From contig QOPZ01000003.1 in assembly GCA_003331885.1 (NCBI GenBank), positions 1 to 61,255 on the forward strand: 61,255 bases of DNA. Reading direction: 5' to 3'. This DNA is from Cryomorphaceae bacterium (GTDB lineage Bacteria > Bacteroidota > Bacteroidia > Flavobacteriales > Flavobacteriaceae). The position numbers and the translations under genes are program-made. The notes beneath the pieces were generated by a model that saw only the letters and a program-made list of their open reading frames with translations, was not told where the DNA came from and did no database searches. Each line of letters begins with the position of its first letter. The first letter of the stretch is position 1. Shown in pieces: positions 52,827 through 60,819 of this stretch.

Positions 52827-52863
52827 AAAAATATCATTAATATGATTTTAATTGAAAAAAAAT

Positions 52864-52871
52864 TATATTTG
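52864..52871 (+). promoter_or_regulatory. Putative -7 element (TATATTTG) of the trp operon
   Basis: Matches TAnnTTTG; only 4 nt before the leader ATG; no well-spaced -33 TTG seen. Confidence 0.45.
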
Positions 52872-52875
52872 AATC

Positions 52876-52935
52876 ATGAAAATCAATAAAATTAATTTTT
52901 GGTGGTGGTCTAAACTAAATGAATTGTTGCATTGA
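52876..52935 (+). CDS. trpL: trp operon leader peptide MKINKINFWWWSKLNELLH
   Basis: 19-aa ORF with three consecutive TGG codons (52900-52908) just upstream of an intrinsic terminator and trpE. Confidence 0.92.
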   Translation: MKINKINFWWWSKLNELLH

Positions 52936-52956
52936 TTTTAAATAAAAATATTTAAT

Positions 52957-52991
52957 AAAGGCTTGTCAATGTGACAGGCCTTTTTTTTTTT
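52957..52991 (+). terminator. trp attenuator terminator
   Basis: AAAGGCTTGTCA-ATG-TGACAGGCCTTT stem followed by an 11-T tract ending just before the trpE ATG. Confidence 0.92.
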
Positions 52992-52993
52992 AT

Positions 52994-54388
52994 ATGAAAA
53001 AATTAAAAACTATAAGAAAGAAAATTATTGTTGACACTATAACTCCTGTAAGTATATATTTAAAATTGAGGGATCAATTTACAAATACAATACTTCTTGA
53101 AAGCAGTGATTACATTGCAAAAGATAATAGTTACGCATACATATGCTGTAATCCAATTGCAAAGTTTTATGTGAAAAAAAATATGTTATTCAAAGAATTT
53201 CCTGATAATTCCAAAAAAGAAACAAAATTAACTTCCACAACAAATATTCTCTCTGAATTAGATGATTTTATGAGAACTTTTGAAATTGATGACAATTCAG
53301 TTGAAAGTAAAAAATATATTTCAAAAGGTTTATTTGGATACATGTCATATGATTCTATCAAGTTTTTTGAAAACATTGAAGTTGAAAATGATTCATATGG
53401 TGATGAAATACCAGAAATTTTTTACAGTTTCTATAGAGAGATAATTGTAATAAATACTTTCAATAATGAAGCTACATTAATCAGTCATTCAGGAGATATT
53501 GAGAAAATTAATACACTAGAAAAGTTAATAAAAACAAAAAAAACAAATGAATTTAGTTTTAAAATTGAAGGTGAAATAAAGTCAAATCTTAAAGACAATG
53601 AATATCTTGAAATGGTAAAAAAAGGTATAAAACATTGTTTTAGAGGTGATGTTTTTCAAATTGTTTTATCGAGAAAATTTTCTCAAAAATTCTCTGGAGA
53701 TGAGTTCTGTGTTTACAGGCAACTTAGGTCAATTAATCCATCACCTTACTTATTTTATTTTGATTATGGAAATTTTAAAATTTTTGGAAGTTCACCAGAG
53801 GCTCAACTAGTTATCAAGGATGAGAAAGCAGAAATACATCCAATTGCAGGGACTTTTAAAAGGACAGGAAATGATTTGATTGACAGTAAAAAAGCAAAAA
53901 AACTTTTTCAAGATGAAAAAGAAAATAGTGAACATATGATGCTAGTTGATTTAGCCAGAAATGATTTAAGTAGATCTTGCAATAATGTTAAAGTTGAAAA
54001 AGATCGTGAAATTCAATTTTATTCTCATGTAATTCATTTAGTATCTAAAGTAACTGGAAAACTTAAGTCTATTTCTAAGAATATAATTGGAAATACATTT
54101 CCTGCAGGGACTCTCACTGGAGCACCTAAGCACAAGGCAATGAATCTAATTGAAAAATATGAAAAAAATAATAGATCGTTTTATGGTGGTGCTATAGGAT
54201 TCATTGATTTTGAAAATAATTATAACCATGCTATTATTATAAGATCGTTTTTAAGTAAAGATCAAAATCTTTTTTTACAAGCTGGAGCAGGTATTGTTTC
54301 CAAATCTAATCCTGAAAATGAATTAAATGAAGTTTATAATAAAATTGGCGCACTTTTAAAAGCGCTTAAAAAAGCTGAAGAAATATGA
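52994..54388 (+). CDS. trpE: Anthranilate synthase component I
   Basis: IFGSSPEAQLVIKDEKAEIHPIAGTFKRTG; HMMLVDLARNDLSRSC; FPAGTLTGAPKHKAM. Confidence 0.97.
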   Translation: MKKLKTIRKKIIVDTITPVSIYLKLRDQFTNTILLESSDYIAKDNSYAYICCNPIAKFYVKKNMLFKEFPDNSKKETKLTSTTNILSELDDFMRTFEIDDNSVESKKYISKGLFGYMSYDSIKFFENIEVENDSYGDEIPEIFYSFYREIIVINTFNNEATLISHSGDIEKINTLEKLIKTKKTNEFSFKIEGEIKSNLKDNEYLEMVKKGIKHCFRGDVFQIVLSRKFSQKFSGDEFCVYRQLRSINPSPYLFYFDYGNFKIFGSSPEAQLVIKDEKAEIHPIAGTFKRTGNDLIDSKKAKKLFQDEKENSEHMMLVDLARNDLSRSCNNVKVEKDREIQFYSHVIHLVSKVTGKLKSISKNIIGNTFPAGTLTGAPKHKAMNLIEKYEKNNRSFYGGAIGFIDFENNYNHAIIIRSFLSKDQNLFLQAGAGIVSKSNPENELNEVYNKIGALLKALKKAEEI

Positions 54389-54945
54389 ATATAATAGTTA
54401 TCGATAATTATGATTCTTTCACATATAATCTTGTCCACTATTTAGAAGATTTAGATTGCAAAGTAACTGTTAAAAGAAATGATAATATAGTGCTTGAATC
54501 AATTAATAATTATGATAAAATTCTTATTTCACCTGGACCAGGAATTCCAGATGAAGCTGGTATGACCAAAAAAATTATAGAAGAATTTTATGATAAAAAA
54601 AGTATTTTGGGAGTATGTTTAGGCCACCAAGCTATTGGTGAAGTTTTTGGAGGAAAATTAATTAATTTAAAAGATGTTTTTCATGGTGTTTCAACTGAAA
54701 TTGAAATCACATCTGATGATCAACTATTTAAAAAAATTCCAAAAAAACTTAAAGTTGGACGTTATCATTCCTGGATTGTTAAAGATCTTGGAAAGAATTT
54801 AATTCCCTTAGCATTTGATGATAATAAAAATGTTATGGCTTTAAAAGTTAAAAACCATAATGTTTGGGGTGTTCAATTTCACCCTGAATCAATTCTCACT
54901 GAAAAAGGAAAAGATATATTAAAAAATTGGATTGAAGCAAAATGA
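54385..54945 (+). CDS. trpG: Anthranilate synthase component II (glutamine amidotransferase)
   Basis: IDNYDSFTYNLVHYLEDL, ISPGPGIPDEAG, GVCLGHQAIGE, HPESILTEKG. Confidence 0.97.
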   Translation: MNIIVIDNYDSFTYNLVHYLEDLDCKVTVKRNDNIVLESINNYDKILISPGPGIPDEAGMTKKIIEEFYDKKSILGVCLGHQAIGEVFGGKLINLKDVFHGVSTEIEITSDDQLFKKIPKKLKVGRYHSWIVKDLGKNLIPLAFDDNKNVMALKVKNHNVWGVQFHPESILTEKGKDILKNWIEAK

Positions 54946-55928
54946 AGAAAATATTAGAATATTTATTTAACTATAATAAGCTTAATTATGATCAAGCAAA
55001 AGAGATATTAATTGATATAACATCAAATAAGTATTCTCATTCTGAAATTGCTTCATTTATGACAATATATAAGATGAGGAACCCTTCAATTGAGGAGATG
55101 GAAGGTTTTAGAGATGCGCTATTGGAGCAGTGTATTAAAATTGACTTTGATGATTTTAACACTATTGATCTTTGCGGGACAGGTGGTGATGGGAAAGACA
55201 CTTTCAACATATCAACGATTTCTTCATTTATTGTAGCTGGTTCTGGATTTAAAGTAACTAAACATGGAAACTATGGAGTATCGTCTAATTGTGGATCAAG
55301 CAATGTTTTGGAGTATCTAGGTGTAAAATTTTCAAATGATGAAAATCATCTTAAAAAATGTCTTGATCAATCAAATATTTGTTATTTACACGCACCTATT
55401 TTTCACCCTTCAATGAAAAATGTTGCTCCAATAAGAAAAGATCTTGGCTTTAAAACATTTTTTAATCTACTGGGGCCACTTGTAAATCCATCAAGCCCAA
55501 AAAACCAAATTACGGGTGTCTATAATTTAGAAATTGCTCGTCTTTATGGTTATATTTTTAAAAACACTAATAAAAATTTTTCTATAGTTTATTCTTTAGA
55601 TGGATATGACGAAATTTCACTTACTGGAAGTTTTAAACTAATCAATAACTTTTCTGAGTTTATTTCTGACTGTAATTATTTTAAACTTCAAAAAACTACT
55701 GCTAAAGATATTTTAGGTGGAAAATCAATTGAAGATTCAGCAAATATTTTTAAAAATATTTTGAGTGGTAAGGGAACAAATAACCAAGTAAATGTTGTTT
55801 TGGCAAATTCTTCATTAGCAATTCAAACAATTACAAATAAAGATATTGATGAATGTATAGAAATTGCAAAGGAATCCATTGAAAGCGGTAAAGCTTACAG
55901 TTCATTGAAAAAATTAATTGAAGCATAA
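54942..55928 (+). CDS. trpD: Anthranilate phosphoribosyltransferase
   Basis: DLCGTGGDGKDTFNISTISSFIVAGSGFKVTKHGNYGVSSNCGSSNVLEYLG. Confidence 0.97.
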   Translation: MKKILEYLFNYNKLNYDQAKEILIDITSNKYSHSEIASFMTIYKMRNPSIEEMEGFRDALLEQCIKIDFDDFNTIDLCGTGGDGKDTFNISTISSFIVAGSGFKVTKHGNYGVSSNCGSSNVLEYLGVKFSNDENHLKKCLDQSNICYLHAPIFHPSMKNVAPIRKDLGFKTFFNLLGPLVNPSSPKNQITGVYNLEIARLYGYIFKNTNKNFSIVYSLDGYDEISLTGSFKLINNFSEFISDCNYFKLQKTTAKDILGGKSIEDSANIFKNILSGKGTNNQVNVVLANSSLAIQTITNKDIDECIEIAKESIESGKAYSSLKKLIEA

Positions 55929-55930
55929 TT

Positions 55931-56722
55931 ATGGATATTCTTACAAAAATTATTAGTAAAAAAATAGATGAATTGAAATATTTGAGACAAAAGAAATCTA
56001 TATCAGATCTTGAAAGATCTCATTTTTTCTCTAAAAAAAATAAATCTATTGTAAAAGCAATTAAAGAAAAAGAGATAAGCATAATTGCTGAACACAAAAG
56101 AAAATCACCATCGAAATCTGATATTAATCATCAAACACCATCTGAAAAAATAATAAAAGGATATGAAAAAGCTGGTGCTGCTGCAATCTCAATTTTAACT
56201 GAGAAAAATTTTTTTAATGGATCTGAAAATGATTTAATTAATGCAAAAAAAATAACGGAACTTCCAATATTAAGAAAAGACTTTATTATCAATGAATACC
56301 AAATAATTGAGTCTAAAGCTATTGGTGCTGATGGGATTTTATTAATAGCTGCATGTTTAGAAAAAAAAGATATTATTAGCTTATCAAAGCTTGCTAAGAG
56401 CTTAGGAATGGAAGTTTTAATAGAAATTCATAATGTAAGTGAACTTGAAAAGTCTTGCATTGATAGTATAGATTTAATTGGTGTAAATAATAGGAACCTT
56501 AAAACGTTTGATGTTAATATTCAGACTAGTATTGATTTAATTAATAAAATTCCATCAAATTATACAAAAATTTCAGAGAGCGGTATTAGTAAGCCAGTTG
56601 ATATTATTAATTTGAAAAATAATGGATTTGATGGTTTTTTAATTGGTGAAACTTTCATGAAAACAAAAGATCCAGGCAAAAATCTATCAAACTTTATAAA
56701 TGAAATAGAAAATGAAAATTAA
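55931..56722 (+). CDS. trpC: Indole-3-glycerol phosphate synthase
   Basis: IIAEHKRKSPSKSDIN, ISILTEKNFFNGS, LPILRKDFIINEYQI, IGVNNRNLKTF. Confidence 0.97.
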   Translation: MDILTKIISKKIDELKYLRQKKSISDLERSHFFSKKNKSIVKAIKEKEISIIAEHKRKSPSKSDINHQTPSEKIIKGYEKAGAAAISILTEKNFFNGSENDLINAKKITELPILRKDFIINEYQIIESKAIGADGILLIAACLEKKDIISLSKLAKSLGMEVLIEIHNVSELEKSCIDSIDLIGVNNRNLKTFDVNIQTSIDLINKIPSNYTKISESGISKPVDIINLKNNGFDGFLIGETFMKTKDPGKNLSNFINEIENEN

Positions 56723-57329
56723 AGTATGTGGTTTAAATAATCAAGATGATATTGATCAGTTAAATAATATAGATATTGATTTTTTGGGTTTTATATTCTA
56801 TAAAAAATCGCCAAGGTTTGTCGATCATAAGATTAAAATTTCCAAAATTAATAAAGAAAAGGTTGGAGTTTTTGTTAATGAGAATCTTGAAAATATTATA
56901 GATAAAATTAAAGAGTATAATTTAACTTTTGTTCAACTTCATGGTGATGAAACACCAATGTTTTGTAAAAAAATTATGGATCACTGTAAGGTTATTAAAG
57001 CATTTAGAGTATCTGATGATTTTAATCTTGAAAAAACCACCAATTATATTGAAAATTGTGATTATTTTCTATTTGATACATTTACAAAAGATTATGGAGG
57101 TTCAGGTAAAAGATTTAATTGGGAAAAAATAAAAAATTTTAATTATAAAAAGTTTTTTTTAAGTGGTGGTATTAATTTAAATAGTATAAATGATATTTAT
57201 ACTTTAAAAAATGAAAATGATTTTTTATTTGGGATTGACATTAATAGTAAGTTTGAAATAAAACCAGGTAATAAAGACATAAATAAAATTAAAATATTAG
57301 TAAATAATTTAAGAAATGGAAAATTTTAA
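56712..57329 (+). CDS. trpF: Phosphoribosylanthranilate isomerase
   Basis: KIKVCGLNNQDDI, FIFYKKSPRFV, VQLHGDE, DTFTKDYGGSGKRFNW. Confidence 0.95.
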   Translation: MKIKVCGLNNQDDIDQLNNIDIDFLGFIFYKKSPRFVDHKIKISKINKEKVGVFVNENLENIIDKIKEYNLTFVQLHGDETPMFCKKIMDHCKVIKAFRVSDDFNLEKTTNYIENCDYFLFDTFTKDYGGSGKRFNWEKIKNFNYKKFFLSGGINLNSINDIYTLKNENDFLFGIDINSKFEIKPGNKDINKIKILVNNLRNGKF

Positions 57330-58500
57330 CATATCTAAGGACGGTTTTTATGGGGATTTTGGAGGTGCTTTTATACCTGAAATGCTTCACCCCAATATAG
57401 AAGAGCTACAAAAAAACTATATAAAAATTTCAGAGTCTAGTGAATTTATAAAAGAATTTAATCAGCTTTTAAAAGATTATGTAGGTCGACCTACTCCACT
57501 CTATTTTGCAAAAAGATTATCTAAAAAATTTAATACAAAAATTTATTTAAAAAGAGAAGATCTTTGTCATACTGGTGCTCACAAAATAAATAATACTATT
57601 GGGCAGATTCTTCTTGCCAAAAAACTAGGTAAAAAAAGAATTATAGCTGAAACTGGAGCTGGACAACATGGTGTTGCTACGGCAACAGTTTGTGCATTAA
57701 TGGGAGTTGAATGTATCATTTATATGGGAGAAATTGATATTACTAGGCAAGCACCAAATGTAGCTAGGATGAAGATGCTTGGAGCTAAAGTAAGACCAGC
57801 TAAATCGGGAAGTAAAACTTTAAAAGATGCAACTAATGAAGCTATCAGAGACTGGATTTCAAACCCAATTGACACTCACTATATAATTGGGTCTGTAGTT
57901 GGTCCACACCCATATCCTGATATGGTTGCTAGGTACCAATCTGTTATTGGTTATGAAACTAAAAAGCAACTAATTAAAGTTGAAAAAACTGAGAAACCAA
58001 CCCATGTCATTGCCTGTGTTGGTGGAGGAAGTAATGCTGCTGGTTTATTTTATCCTTTTTTAAATGATAAAGATGTAAAAATAATATGTGTTGAAGCTGC
58101 TGGAAAAGGAGTAAATACAGGTGAAAGTGCCGCAACTTCTATTTTAGGAACTGAAGGAATTATTCATGGGTCAAAAACACTACTAATGCAAACAAATGAT
58201 GGTCAAATTACAGAACCATATTCAATTTCAGCAGGGTTAGATTATCCAGGGATAGGTCCAATGCATGCAAATTTATTTAGAACTAAAAGAGGTGAATTTG
58301 TATCAATTGATGATAATGATGCAATGAAATGGGGATTGCTATTGTCTCAGATGGAAGGTATTATACCTGCTATTGAAACGGCTCATGCTTTTGCTGTACT
58401 AGAAAAAATGAAATTTAGTAAAAGTGATATTGTTATATTTAATTGTTCAGGTAGAGGAGATAAAGATTTAGATACATACATTAATTATTTTAAGTTATGA
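57316..58500 (+). CDS. trpB: Tryptophan synthase beta subunit
   Basis: GGAFIPEML, GRPTPLYFAKRLS, LKREDLCHTGAHKINN, ETGAGQHGVATA. Confidence 0.98.
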   Translation: MENFNISKDGFYGDFGGAFIPEMLHPNIEELQKNYIKISESSEFIKEFNQLLKDYVGRPTPLYFAKRLSKKFNTKIYLKREDLCHTGAHKINNTIGQILLAKKLGKKRIIAETGAGQHGVATATVCALMGVECIIYMGEIDITRQAPNVARMKMLGAKVRPAKSGSKTLKDATNEAIRDWISNPIDTHYIIGSVVGPHPYPDMVARYQSVIGYETKKQLIKVEKTEKPTHVIACVGGGSNAAGLFYPFLNDKDVKIICVEAAGKGVNTGESAATSILGTEGIIHGSKTLLMQTNDGQITEPYSISAGLDYPGIGPMHANLFRTKRGEFVSIDDNDAMKWGLLLSQMEGIIPAIETAHAFAVLEKMKFSKSDIVIFNCSGRGDKDLDTYINYFKL

Positions 58501-60062
58501 AAAAGTTTATTTTATTTTTTAGTACGCTAATTTTCCTAAACCTTACATCATGTGAATTTGAAAAACATGAAATAGCTAAAAGTGATAAAAAGAATGTTCT
58601 GTTTATTATGACAGATGATTTAAATACTGACTTGGGTTCCTATTATCATGATCAAGTAATAAGTCCTAATATTGATAATCTAGCTAATAATGGTTCTCTT
58701 TTTGAAAATGCTCATATACAATGGCCTCAATGTGGACAATCAAGAGCATCTTTTATGACAGGTATGTATTCAGATCAAACAAAGCACACAAAACTAAATG
58801 TTGATATTAGAACTACAATTCCGGATGTTGTAACACTTGGTCAAAGATTTAGACAAAGGGGTTATAAATCTGTCAGAATTGGAAAAATTTATCATTATGA
58901 TAATCCAGGTTCAATTGGCACATCAAGTGCGGATGATATTCATACATGGGATTACACAATTAATCCATATGGGAGAGATAAAGAAGAAGAATACAAAATA
59001 AATACACTTAGAACGAGAGCTTATGGAGGTACACTAAGTTGGCTTGAAGCAGATGGAGTTGATGAAGAACAAACTGATGGAATTGTTGCAACTGAAGCAA
59101 TTGAAGAACTTGAAAAATTTTCTAAATCTGATCAAAACTTCTTTTTAGCTGTTGGTTTTTTTAAGCCTCATACACCATATGTAGCTCCGAAAAAATATTT
59201 TGATATGTATGATGTTAATGAAATACTAATTCCAGATATGAATGATGAATTTTTAAGTTCAATACCAAAACCAGCAGCAGTATCCTTAAGACATGAGGGT
59301 GATGGTAAGGGAAATCAGTATGGATTGGAAAAAAGTGAAGCACAGGAAATTAAAAGAGCATACTATGCAACTATTACGTTTTTAGATGCACAAATTGGTA
59401 GAATTATTAAAAAACTTAAAGAGACAGGATTAGATAAGAATACCATAATTGTTTTTTCAAGTGACCATGGTTATCATTTAGGTGAAAAAGGACACTGGCA
59501 AAAACAAACACTATATGAAAAAACAACTCGTGTGCCACTAATTTTTGCTGGACCTGGAATAAAAAAAGGTTCAAGAAGTAATTCTCCTGTCGAGTTAATT
59601 GATATGTACCCTACACTTATGGATTTAACTGGAATAAAACCTCCTGACCATGTTGTTGGAAAAAGTTTAGTACCAATTTTTAATGATAGTAATTATAAAG
59701 TTAGAAATAGTGCACTGACAAGATGGATTGCTACTAGATTTAATAATGTTGAAGGTTATTCAATTAAAACTGATAGATATAGGCTGGTTAAATGGGGTGA
59801 AAATGGTGAGTTTGGATATGAGTTATATGATCATAAATATGATTCAAAAGAAAATAATAACCTAGTAAAAGACTTCAATTATTTTACTCTAATGGATTCG
59901 TTAAAGGTTGAAATTGAATTAAGAATAAAAGATGCTAGAAAAAAGCCAAAAGGTCTTGGGAGACAACTCGAGGAAAAACCTTATCAGCGTTATACCTACA
60001 CGCCAGGTGACTTATATGATGTTAATAGTAAAAGAGTTTATTTAAAACCTGCTGATGAATAG
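58497..60062 (+). CDS. Lipoprotein sulfatase (alkaline phosphatase superfamily, iduronate-2-sulfatase-like)
   Basis: Lipobox LNLTSC; KNVLFIMTDDLNTDLGSYY, CGQSRASFMTG, VGFFKPHTPYVAPKKYFD, SSDHGYHLGEKGHWQKQTLYEKTTRVPLI. Confidence 0.93.
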   Translation: MKKFILFFSTLIFLNLTSCEFEKHEIAKSDKKNVLFIMTDDLNTDLGSYYHDQVISPNIDNLANNGSLFENAHIQWPQCGQSRASFMTGMYSDQTKHTKLNVDIRTTIPDVVTLGQRFRQRGYKSVRIGKIYHYDNPGSIGTSSADDIHTWDYTINPYGRDKEEEYKINTLRTRAYGGTLSWLEADGVDEEQTDGIVATEAIEELEKFSKSDQNFFLAVGFFKPHTPYVAPKKYFDMYDVNEILIPDMNDEFLSSIPKPAAVSLRHEGDGKGNQYGLEKSEAQEIKRAYYATITFLDAQIGRIIKKLKETGLDKNTIIVFSSDHGYHLGEKGHWQKQTLYEKTTRVPLIFAGPGIKKGSRSNSPVELIDMYPTLMDLTGIKPPDHVVGKSLVPIFNDSNYKVRNSALTRWIATRFNNVEGYSIKTDRYRLVKWGENGEFGYELYDHKYDSKENNNLVKDFNYFTLMDSLKVEIELRIKDARKKPKGLGRQLEEKPYQRYTYTPGDLYDVNSKRVYLKPADE

Positions 60063-60819
60063 AATCAATCAAACATTTCAAAATAAAAAAGATATTCTGT
60101 CTATATATTTTACAGCTGGTTTCCCAAAGTTAGATGATACTCTAAAAATAATCAGAGAACTTGATAATTCTAATGTTGATATGATTGAGATTGGTTTACC
60201 TTTTAGTGATCCACTTGCTGACGGACCTACAATTCAAAAAAGTTCTGAAAAAGCACTTAAAAATGGTATGACCACAGATTTACTTTTTAATCAATTAAGA
60301 GGCCTTCGTTCAATTACTGATATCCCTATTGTTGTTATGGGCTACTTTAATCCAATTCTACAATATGGCTTTGATAAATTTTGTATAAACTGTAAAAAAA
60401 GTGGTATTGATGGTCTAATAATTCCAGATCTTCCTGTTGATATTTATAAAAAAAGCTATAAAAGTAAAGTAGAAAATTATGGTTTAAATATGATGTTCTT
60501 AATTACACCTCAAACCTCAAATGATCGTATACATGTAATTGATGAAATATCTAAGGGTTTTATTTACATGGTCAGTAGCTTTGGCGTTACAGGTGCTAGA
60601 GATAATTTTGATGAATATCAAATTGAATATTTTGAAAGAATAAAAGAAATGAAATTATCTAATCCTCTTTTAATTGGATTTGGTATAAGTAATGATAAAA
60701 CATTTAAATCTGCTTGTGAAAATAGTAATGGAGCGATTATAGGATCTGCTTATATACAGCATTTAAAGAACTATGGTGTTTCAAAAACTAATGATTTTAT
60801 AGAAAAAATAAAGTTTTAA
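60055..60819 (+). CDS. trpA: Tryptophan synthase alpha subunit
   Basis: FTAGFPKLDDTLKIIRELDNSNVDMIEIGLPFSDPLADGPTIQ, YMVSSFGVTGAR. Confidence 0.97.
   Translation: MNRINQTFQNKKDILSIYFTAGFPKLDDTLKIIRELDNSNVDMIEIGLPFSDPLADGPTIQKSSEKALKNGMTTDLLFNQLRGLRSITDIPIVVMGYFNPILQYGFDKFCINCKKSGIDGLIIPDLPVDIYKKSYKSKVENYGLNMMFLITPQTSNDRIHVIDEISKGFIYMVSSFGVTGARDNFDEYQIEYFERIKEMKLSNPLLIGFGISNDKTFKSACENSNGAIIGSAYIQHLKNYGVSKTNDFIEKIKF

Follow-up and report, generated by a model that had tools for sequence, protein, structure and literature searches.

What controls the tryptophan operon of this Cryomorphaceae bacterium, a marine flavobacterium, is the question raised by the DNA immediately upstream of trpE in contig QOPZ01000003.1, where a short reading frame with three consecutive Trp codons is followed by a hairpin and a run of T. 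We analyzed the locus within a window of 61,255 nucleotides, that is, the whole stretch of DNA considered here, to which its coordinates refer. The genes downstream of the leader are as follows:

52994-54388, plus strand: trpE (anthranilate synthase component I), the first controlled gene (TIGR00564, E 3.5e-120, below that model's curated cutoff)
54385-54945, plus strand: trpG (ORF, NCBIfam)
54942-55928, plus strand: trpD (ORF, NCBIfam)
55931-56722, plus strand: trpC (ORF, NCBIfam)
56712-57329, plus strand: trpF (ORF, NCBIfam)
57316-58500, plus strand: trpB (ORF, NCBIfam)
58497-60062, plus strand: sulfatase-like ORF between trpB and trpA (arylsulfatase/choline-sulfatase models, E 4e-73 and 1e-60)
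60055-60819, plus strand: trpA (TIGR00262, E 1.7e-66)

The gene order is trpE-G-D-C-F-B, sulfatase-like ORF, trpA, and the ORFs from trpG to trpB (54385-58500) overlap or abut. The sulfatase-like ORF runs in the same direction as trpB and trpA and overlaps each of them by a few bases. The best relatives of trpE are 79-59% identical, and the nearest named relatives are uncultured Bacteroidetes. We are highly confident that the leader of this operon is a ribosome-mediated transcription attenuator and a divergent member of the Bacteroid-trp RNA family (RF01692); its transcription start, actual termination and Trp dependence we infer. The parts of the proposed switch are:

52876-52935, plus strand: leader peptide ORF, MKINKINFWWWSKLNELLH and stop (sequence; Trp-run ORF conserved in relatives; predicted leaderless)
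52900-52908, plus strand: putative sensor and stall site, three Trp codons TGG TGG TGG (sequence)
52924-52936, plus strand: strand 2, the 5′ strand of the antiterminator, UUGUUGCAUUGAU (pairing, covariation, constrained folding)
52957-52991, plus strand: intrinsic terminator, 12-bp stem AAAGGCUUGUCA/UGACAGGCCUUU, loop AUG, U11 tract (dG, z-score, conservation)
52965-52977, plus strand: strand 3, the 3′ strand of the antiterminator, GUCAAUGUGACAG (pairing, covariation, constrained folding)

A sequence-only reading had described a 19-codon ORF with TGG TGG TGG at 52900-52908, and these coordinates were borne out when we read the sequence; the UGA stop of this ORF (52933-52935) falls within strand 2. 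The terminator, which the same reading had placed so that its T11 ends 2 nt before the trpE ATG, is found exactly there: its arms are AAAGGCTTGTCA (52957-52968) and TGACAGGCCTTT (52972-52983), separated by the loop ATG (52969-52971), and the T11 (52981-52991) is followed by AT and then by the trpE ATG at 52994. With a dG of -15.8 kcal/mol (z -5.3), its stability was equaled in 0 of 200 shuffles. The segment UUGUUGCAUUGA (52924-52935) pairs along its full length with UCAAUGUGACAG (52966-52977), which gives the 12 pairs that had been claimed, although three of them (52924-52977, 52928-52973 and 52929-52972), and not four, are G-U; an optional 13th pair, also G-U, can form between 52936U and 52965G. 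Shuffled versions of strand 3 reached the observed pairing score with strand 2 in only 0.08% of cases. Strand 3 comprises the last bases of the terminator 5′ arm, the loop and the first bases of the 3′ arm, and antiterminator and terminator are mutually exclusive, bases 52965-52977 being common to both (covariation, constrained folds). The elements named from the sequence alone are confirmed as real, each at the position it had been given, and the conservation of the trait in relatives removes altogether a reading of the window as chance.

This conservation was assessed in 80 trpE loci from named genomes and in 89 upstream regions drawn from about one genome per Flavobacteriaceae genus, 169 in total. 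The attenuator reading had staked itself on relatives keeping the Trp run, and in the near one-per-genus sample a leader ORF with WW or WWW was present upstream of trpE in 86 of the 89 regions, accompanied by an intrinsic terminator in 85. Among all 169 regions the leader ORF was found in 164, 163 of which also have the terminator; three of the five regions without a leader are cut off by contig ends (L022, L035, L153). Trp-rich leader ORFs with a terminator also precede trpE in other families of Bacteroidia, some with WxW and not WW. Particularly, the Trp run is broken (W-x-W, as in TWRWQV and AWLWQG) or reduced in L184, L186, L189, L192 and L193, in which the ORF and the terminator persist all the same. 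In two Leeuwenhoekiella loci (L051 and L058), an in-frame insertion extends the Trp leader ORF from about 15 codons, as judged by comparison with L050, to 45-48, leaving the Trp run and the attenuator intact. Seven loci carry a small GIY-YIG-like ORF inserted between the attenuator terminator and trpE, so that the leader lies farther upstream. This ORF resembles a GIY-YIG nuclease by eye (YVYIITN...TLYIGIT...) and occupies positions 1642-1938 in L018 and 1668-1952 in L062, with similar ORFs in L021, L041, L047, L049 and L066. The hosts are Salegentibacter and Allomuricauda/Flagellimonas, and short palindromes of the CTCCCGCCTTCGCGGGAG and CATTTCCACGAAAGCGGAAAT type adjoin the insert; ORF and palindromes together look like a small mobile element.

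The antiterminator pairing is likewise maintained, by compensating changes. The window and its closest relatives have CAUUGA:UCAAUG as the core, most genera have GUGA:UCAC, and GCGA:UCGC, GCAA:UUGC, GAAA:UUUC and GUAA:UUAC occur in others. In a set of 40 sequences picked for diversity, in which the register was chosen by pairing, 85% of the core cells were paired, versus 74.1 ± 1.1 in shuffles, and 33 cells were doubly changed, versus 9.7 ± 2.5; registers slid along the alignment paired in 12-46% of cells. The covariation score of 0.399 (0.198 ± 0.020 when shuffled) was reached in 0 of 500 shuffles, so the pairing covaries in relatives, a check that the sequence-only reading had proposed; as the sequences are related to one another, these counts are not independent events. 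Since the register of this set had been selected on pairing, we performed a second test in which strand 2 was set 18 nt from the last Trp codon in every locus, whether or not it paired. At this position 71.5% of the core cells pair; each of the other offsets, from -6 to +6 around 18 nt, gave 19-40%. In 100 of 162 loci, the window included, the strand-2 core lies 18 nt from the last Trp codon, and in most of the others 17-22 nt, whereas the position of the stop codon relative to strand 2 ranges from -8 to +15. A near-fixed Trp-to-strand-2 distance together with a free stop position indicates that selection has kept the distance, and not a stop inside the switch. The stop codon had been described as embedded in the switch, which is so in the window but incidental, and we dropped the idea that it is required there.

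To follow the two states of the switch, we masked the ribosome footprint and folded partial transcripts that stop where the terminator 3′ arm begins. With the ribosome stalled on the Trp codons, the window gave probabilities of 1.00 for the antiterminator and 0.00 for the terminator, and with the ribosome at the stop codon 0.00 and 0.80, respectively. Masked folding had been suggested as a check on the claim that a stall on WWW favors the antiterminator and arrival at the stop favors the terminator, and it reproduces the predicted on/off switch. Across 162 loci, the antiterminator exceeded the terminator in the stalled state in 156, and the terminator exceeded the antiterminator at the stop in all 162. 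When the spacer was shuffled in these folds, the terminator returned in the stalled state (mean 0.61, versus 0.00 unshuffled).

Besides these two pairings, the free leader has a third:

52879-52887, plus strand: strand 1, AAAAUCAAU, which pairs with AUUGAUUUU (52931-52939) when ribosome-free (free-leader MFE)

The resulting 1:2-type hairpin (52879-52887/52931-52939) is the minimum free energy fold of the free leader and is weak (z -1.62). Similarly, in close relatives the Trp-codon region or the codons preceding it fold onto bases at the stop codon or beyond it, and the RF01692 consensus also has a hairpin between the Trp codons and the post-stop region, the exact Rfam pairs of which are partly broken in the window. 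The probability of a 1:2-type hairpin is above 0.5 in 114 of 162 loci but below 0.5 in the window's partial transcript, which, unlike that of most relatives, favors the antiterminator (0.93) when free of ribosomes; the 1:2 control of the window therefore looks weak. The earlier statement that no clear 1:2 hairpin is present is made doubtful by the free-leader fold and its counterparts in relatives, and these models suggest that the element is not clearly a minimal attenuator.

Taken together, the parts suggest the following course of events. The RNA would begin at or next to the leader ATG, and with such a start ribosomes would load at the RNA 5′ end. A ribosome with a Trp codon in its A-site covers about 12 nt downstream, and in the window strand 2 starts 15 nt past the last Trp codon; with this footprint, strand 2 would be free during a Trp stall and covered by a ribosome at the stop. 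When Trp-tRNA is scarce, the ribosome would stall on UGG 52900-52908 with its leading edge short of strand 2 (52924-52936), and the freed strand 2 would pair with strand 3 as it emerges, blocking the terminator so that trpE is transcribed. Strand 3 has its first part before and in the terminator loop, and because the loop is synthesized ahead of the 3′ arm, the antiterminator would form with a lead over the terminator. When Trp is plentiful, a ribosome at UGA 52933-52935 would cover strand 2, and the 12-bp stem with its U11 would terminate transcription 2 nt before trpE. If no ribosome is present, the 1:2-type hairpin (52879-52887/52931-52939) could hold strand 2 back.

In full-length folds of five loci, the window among them, the terminator is favored in every state, which is what would suit a constitutive terminator, serving for example to insulate the trp operon partially, that lies next to a Trp-rich ORF by chance and is not coupled to translation. 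We consider this explanation exceedingly improbable, as the Trp run, the terminator, the covarying strand 2 and the 18-nt spacing are all conserved family-wide. Because the terminator always wins at full length, the choice between structures must be kinetic and made during transcription, and the partial-transcript folds are our only approximation of this kinetic switching. The U-tract reaches to 2 nt from the trpE ATG, and in the window and close relatives 8-19 nt separate the terminator from trpE; this proximity fits the idea that leader translation controls trpE mainly at the level of translation, the hairpin shutting the trpE start and the ribosome position deciding access. However, a stem with a long U-tract is a standard intrinsic terminator, and in most relatives it lies from 24 to more than 100 nt upstream of trpE, which places the conserved function at transcription; translational control in the main role is thus very unlikely, and it could add to attenuation but not replace it.

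A Trp-binding protein or a tRNA-binding leader (TRAP, TrpR, T-box) as the regulator, the leader ORF being a by-product, can hardly be credited either, and nothing was found in favor of it. At the gathering threshold, an Rfam scan of the window returned tRNAs only and no T-box or other leader; the Trp repressor (PF01371) was not found in the searched part of this genome, which is 61.6% complete, and exceeded its cutoff in one of 61 family genomes.

The attenuation model depends on where the RNA begins. Upstream of the leader ORF we found the following element:

52864-52871, plus strand: Bacteroidota sigma-A -7 box, TATATTTG (TAnnTTTG) (sequence; conserved in relatives)

Its -33 counterpart is weak (TATG at 52841-52844, with a 19-nt spacer). 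Of 80 related trpE loci, 71 have a -7 box immediately before the leader ORF, and in the window 4 nt separate the end of the box from the leader ATG. In the transcription start map of Flavobacterium psychrophilum (PMC9723704), the box is located at -12 to -5, from which the predicted start of the window is 52876, the A of the leader ATG. The leader peptide ORF is, on this spacing, probably leaderless and starts at the first base of the RNA. In the closest relatives (L003, L004, L007-L010, L083) the leader starts with GTG and not ATG, the -7 box being also 4 nt away, a possible leaderless GTG start. Among 83 genus-sample loci, 9 have 4 nt between box and start and 18 have 5 nt, and the distribution trails off to 22 nt, so a leaderless ORF or a 1-nt leader is predicted to be the commonest, not the sole, arrangement in the family. 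Leaderless mRNAs make up only 5.5% of the mRNAs of F. psychrophilum (PMC9723704). The spacing is not unique to the trp leader, given that three of the 53 larger ORFs in the window have a box 3-6 nt upstream, and the pattern of box, 4 nt and ATGAA has five matches in the genome against three control matches. Whether Bacteroidota trp attenuators typically have a leaderless (or 1-nt-leader) peptide, with an antiterminator that nucleates on the terminator loop ahead of synthesis of the 3′ arm, is a proposal that we put forward tentatively and rather doubt. If it holds, transcription would start on the AUG and a 70S ribosome would engage the RNA 5′ end as it emerges, coupling translation to transcription independently of a Shine-Dalgarno site and making a strong pause hairpin less needed.

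The window shares with Bacteroid-trp RNA (Rfam RF01692; Weinberg et al., 2010, PMC2864571) its occurrence in Bacteroidota, a position upstream of trp biosynthesis genes and a leader ORF with at least two Trp codons (WWW here). In a permissive Rfam scan of the window, RF01692 gave the highest score, aligned on the right strand, in register and over the full model (positions 1-131), at 27.9 bits (E 0.34 for 351 nt), below the gathering threshold of 49 bits, a cutoff passed by 11 of 20 related leaders and 37 of 61 family genomes. A covariance model built from 35 other leaders (R1), from which the window, L003, L004 and L083 were excluded, matched 52888-52986 at 63.6 bits (E 1.6e-9), and this match makes the window homologous to Bacteroid-trp, which it also resembles in its mode of action, even though the strict Rfam threshold is not reached. 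We also considered a minus-strand covariance-model match (52954-53054) as a second element and rejected it, since it is the terminator palindrome read backwards. Unlike the structure proposed here, the Rfam model extends only to the terminator 5′ arm and leaves out the antiterminator-terminator switch.

In trp attenuators of the E. coli type, a leader peptide with a Trp run is combined with alternative 1:2, 2:3 and 3:4 pairings, and a ribosome at the stop codon favors termination. The window resembles them in its Trp-run leader peptide, its alternative pairings and the predicted termination with a ribosome at the stop codon; in contrast, its strand 2 pairs for the most part with the terminator loop and the first bases of the 3′ arm, not only with the 5′ arm, and its leader ORF is predicted to be leaderless, with no Shine-Dalgarno site used. 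A 2010 survey of attenuation by Lopatovskaya et al. may cover the Bacteroidetes; our search of the literature on trp attenuation in Bacteroidetes found nothing specific, and the link to published work was made via the Rfam name. The trpL/rnTrpL system of Sinorhizobium meliloti (PMC7298713) is similarly an attenuator with a leader peptide on a leaderless small mRNA, but it is alphaproteobacterial, and its sRNA and peptide have a role in trans. For F. psychrophilum, two reports (PMC9723704; PMC6414381) give clues of leader-peptide attenuation before amino-acid operons and mention a Bacteroid-trp element ahead of trp; the passages concerned hold no detail of the trp-leader mechanism, no covariation and no leaderless start.

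The element family (RF01692) and the clues of leader-peptide attenuation in F. psychrophilum are already known; what our analysis adds is the covarying antiterminator, the fixed distance from the Trp codons to strand 2, the free position of the stop and the predicted leaderless leader peptide. Bacteroid-trp, published yet little studied, would accordingly be a complete attenuator driven by the ribosome, with an antiterminator that covaries among relatives. Its pairing is given here base by base, and a leaderless start is predicted for it in a phylum in which Shine-Dalgarno sites are not used; the Rfam RF01692 model misses its divergent members. The attenuator is present in nearly every sampled genus of Flavobacteriaceae and reaches across the Bacteroidia. 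The switch should permit expression of the trp genes only under Trp shortage and, as the sampled Flavobacteriaceae are almost always without a Trp repressor, it may be their main control of trp.
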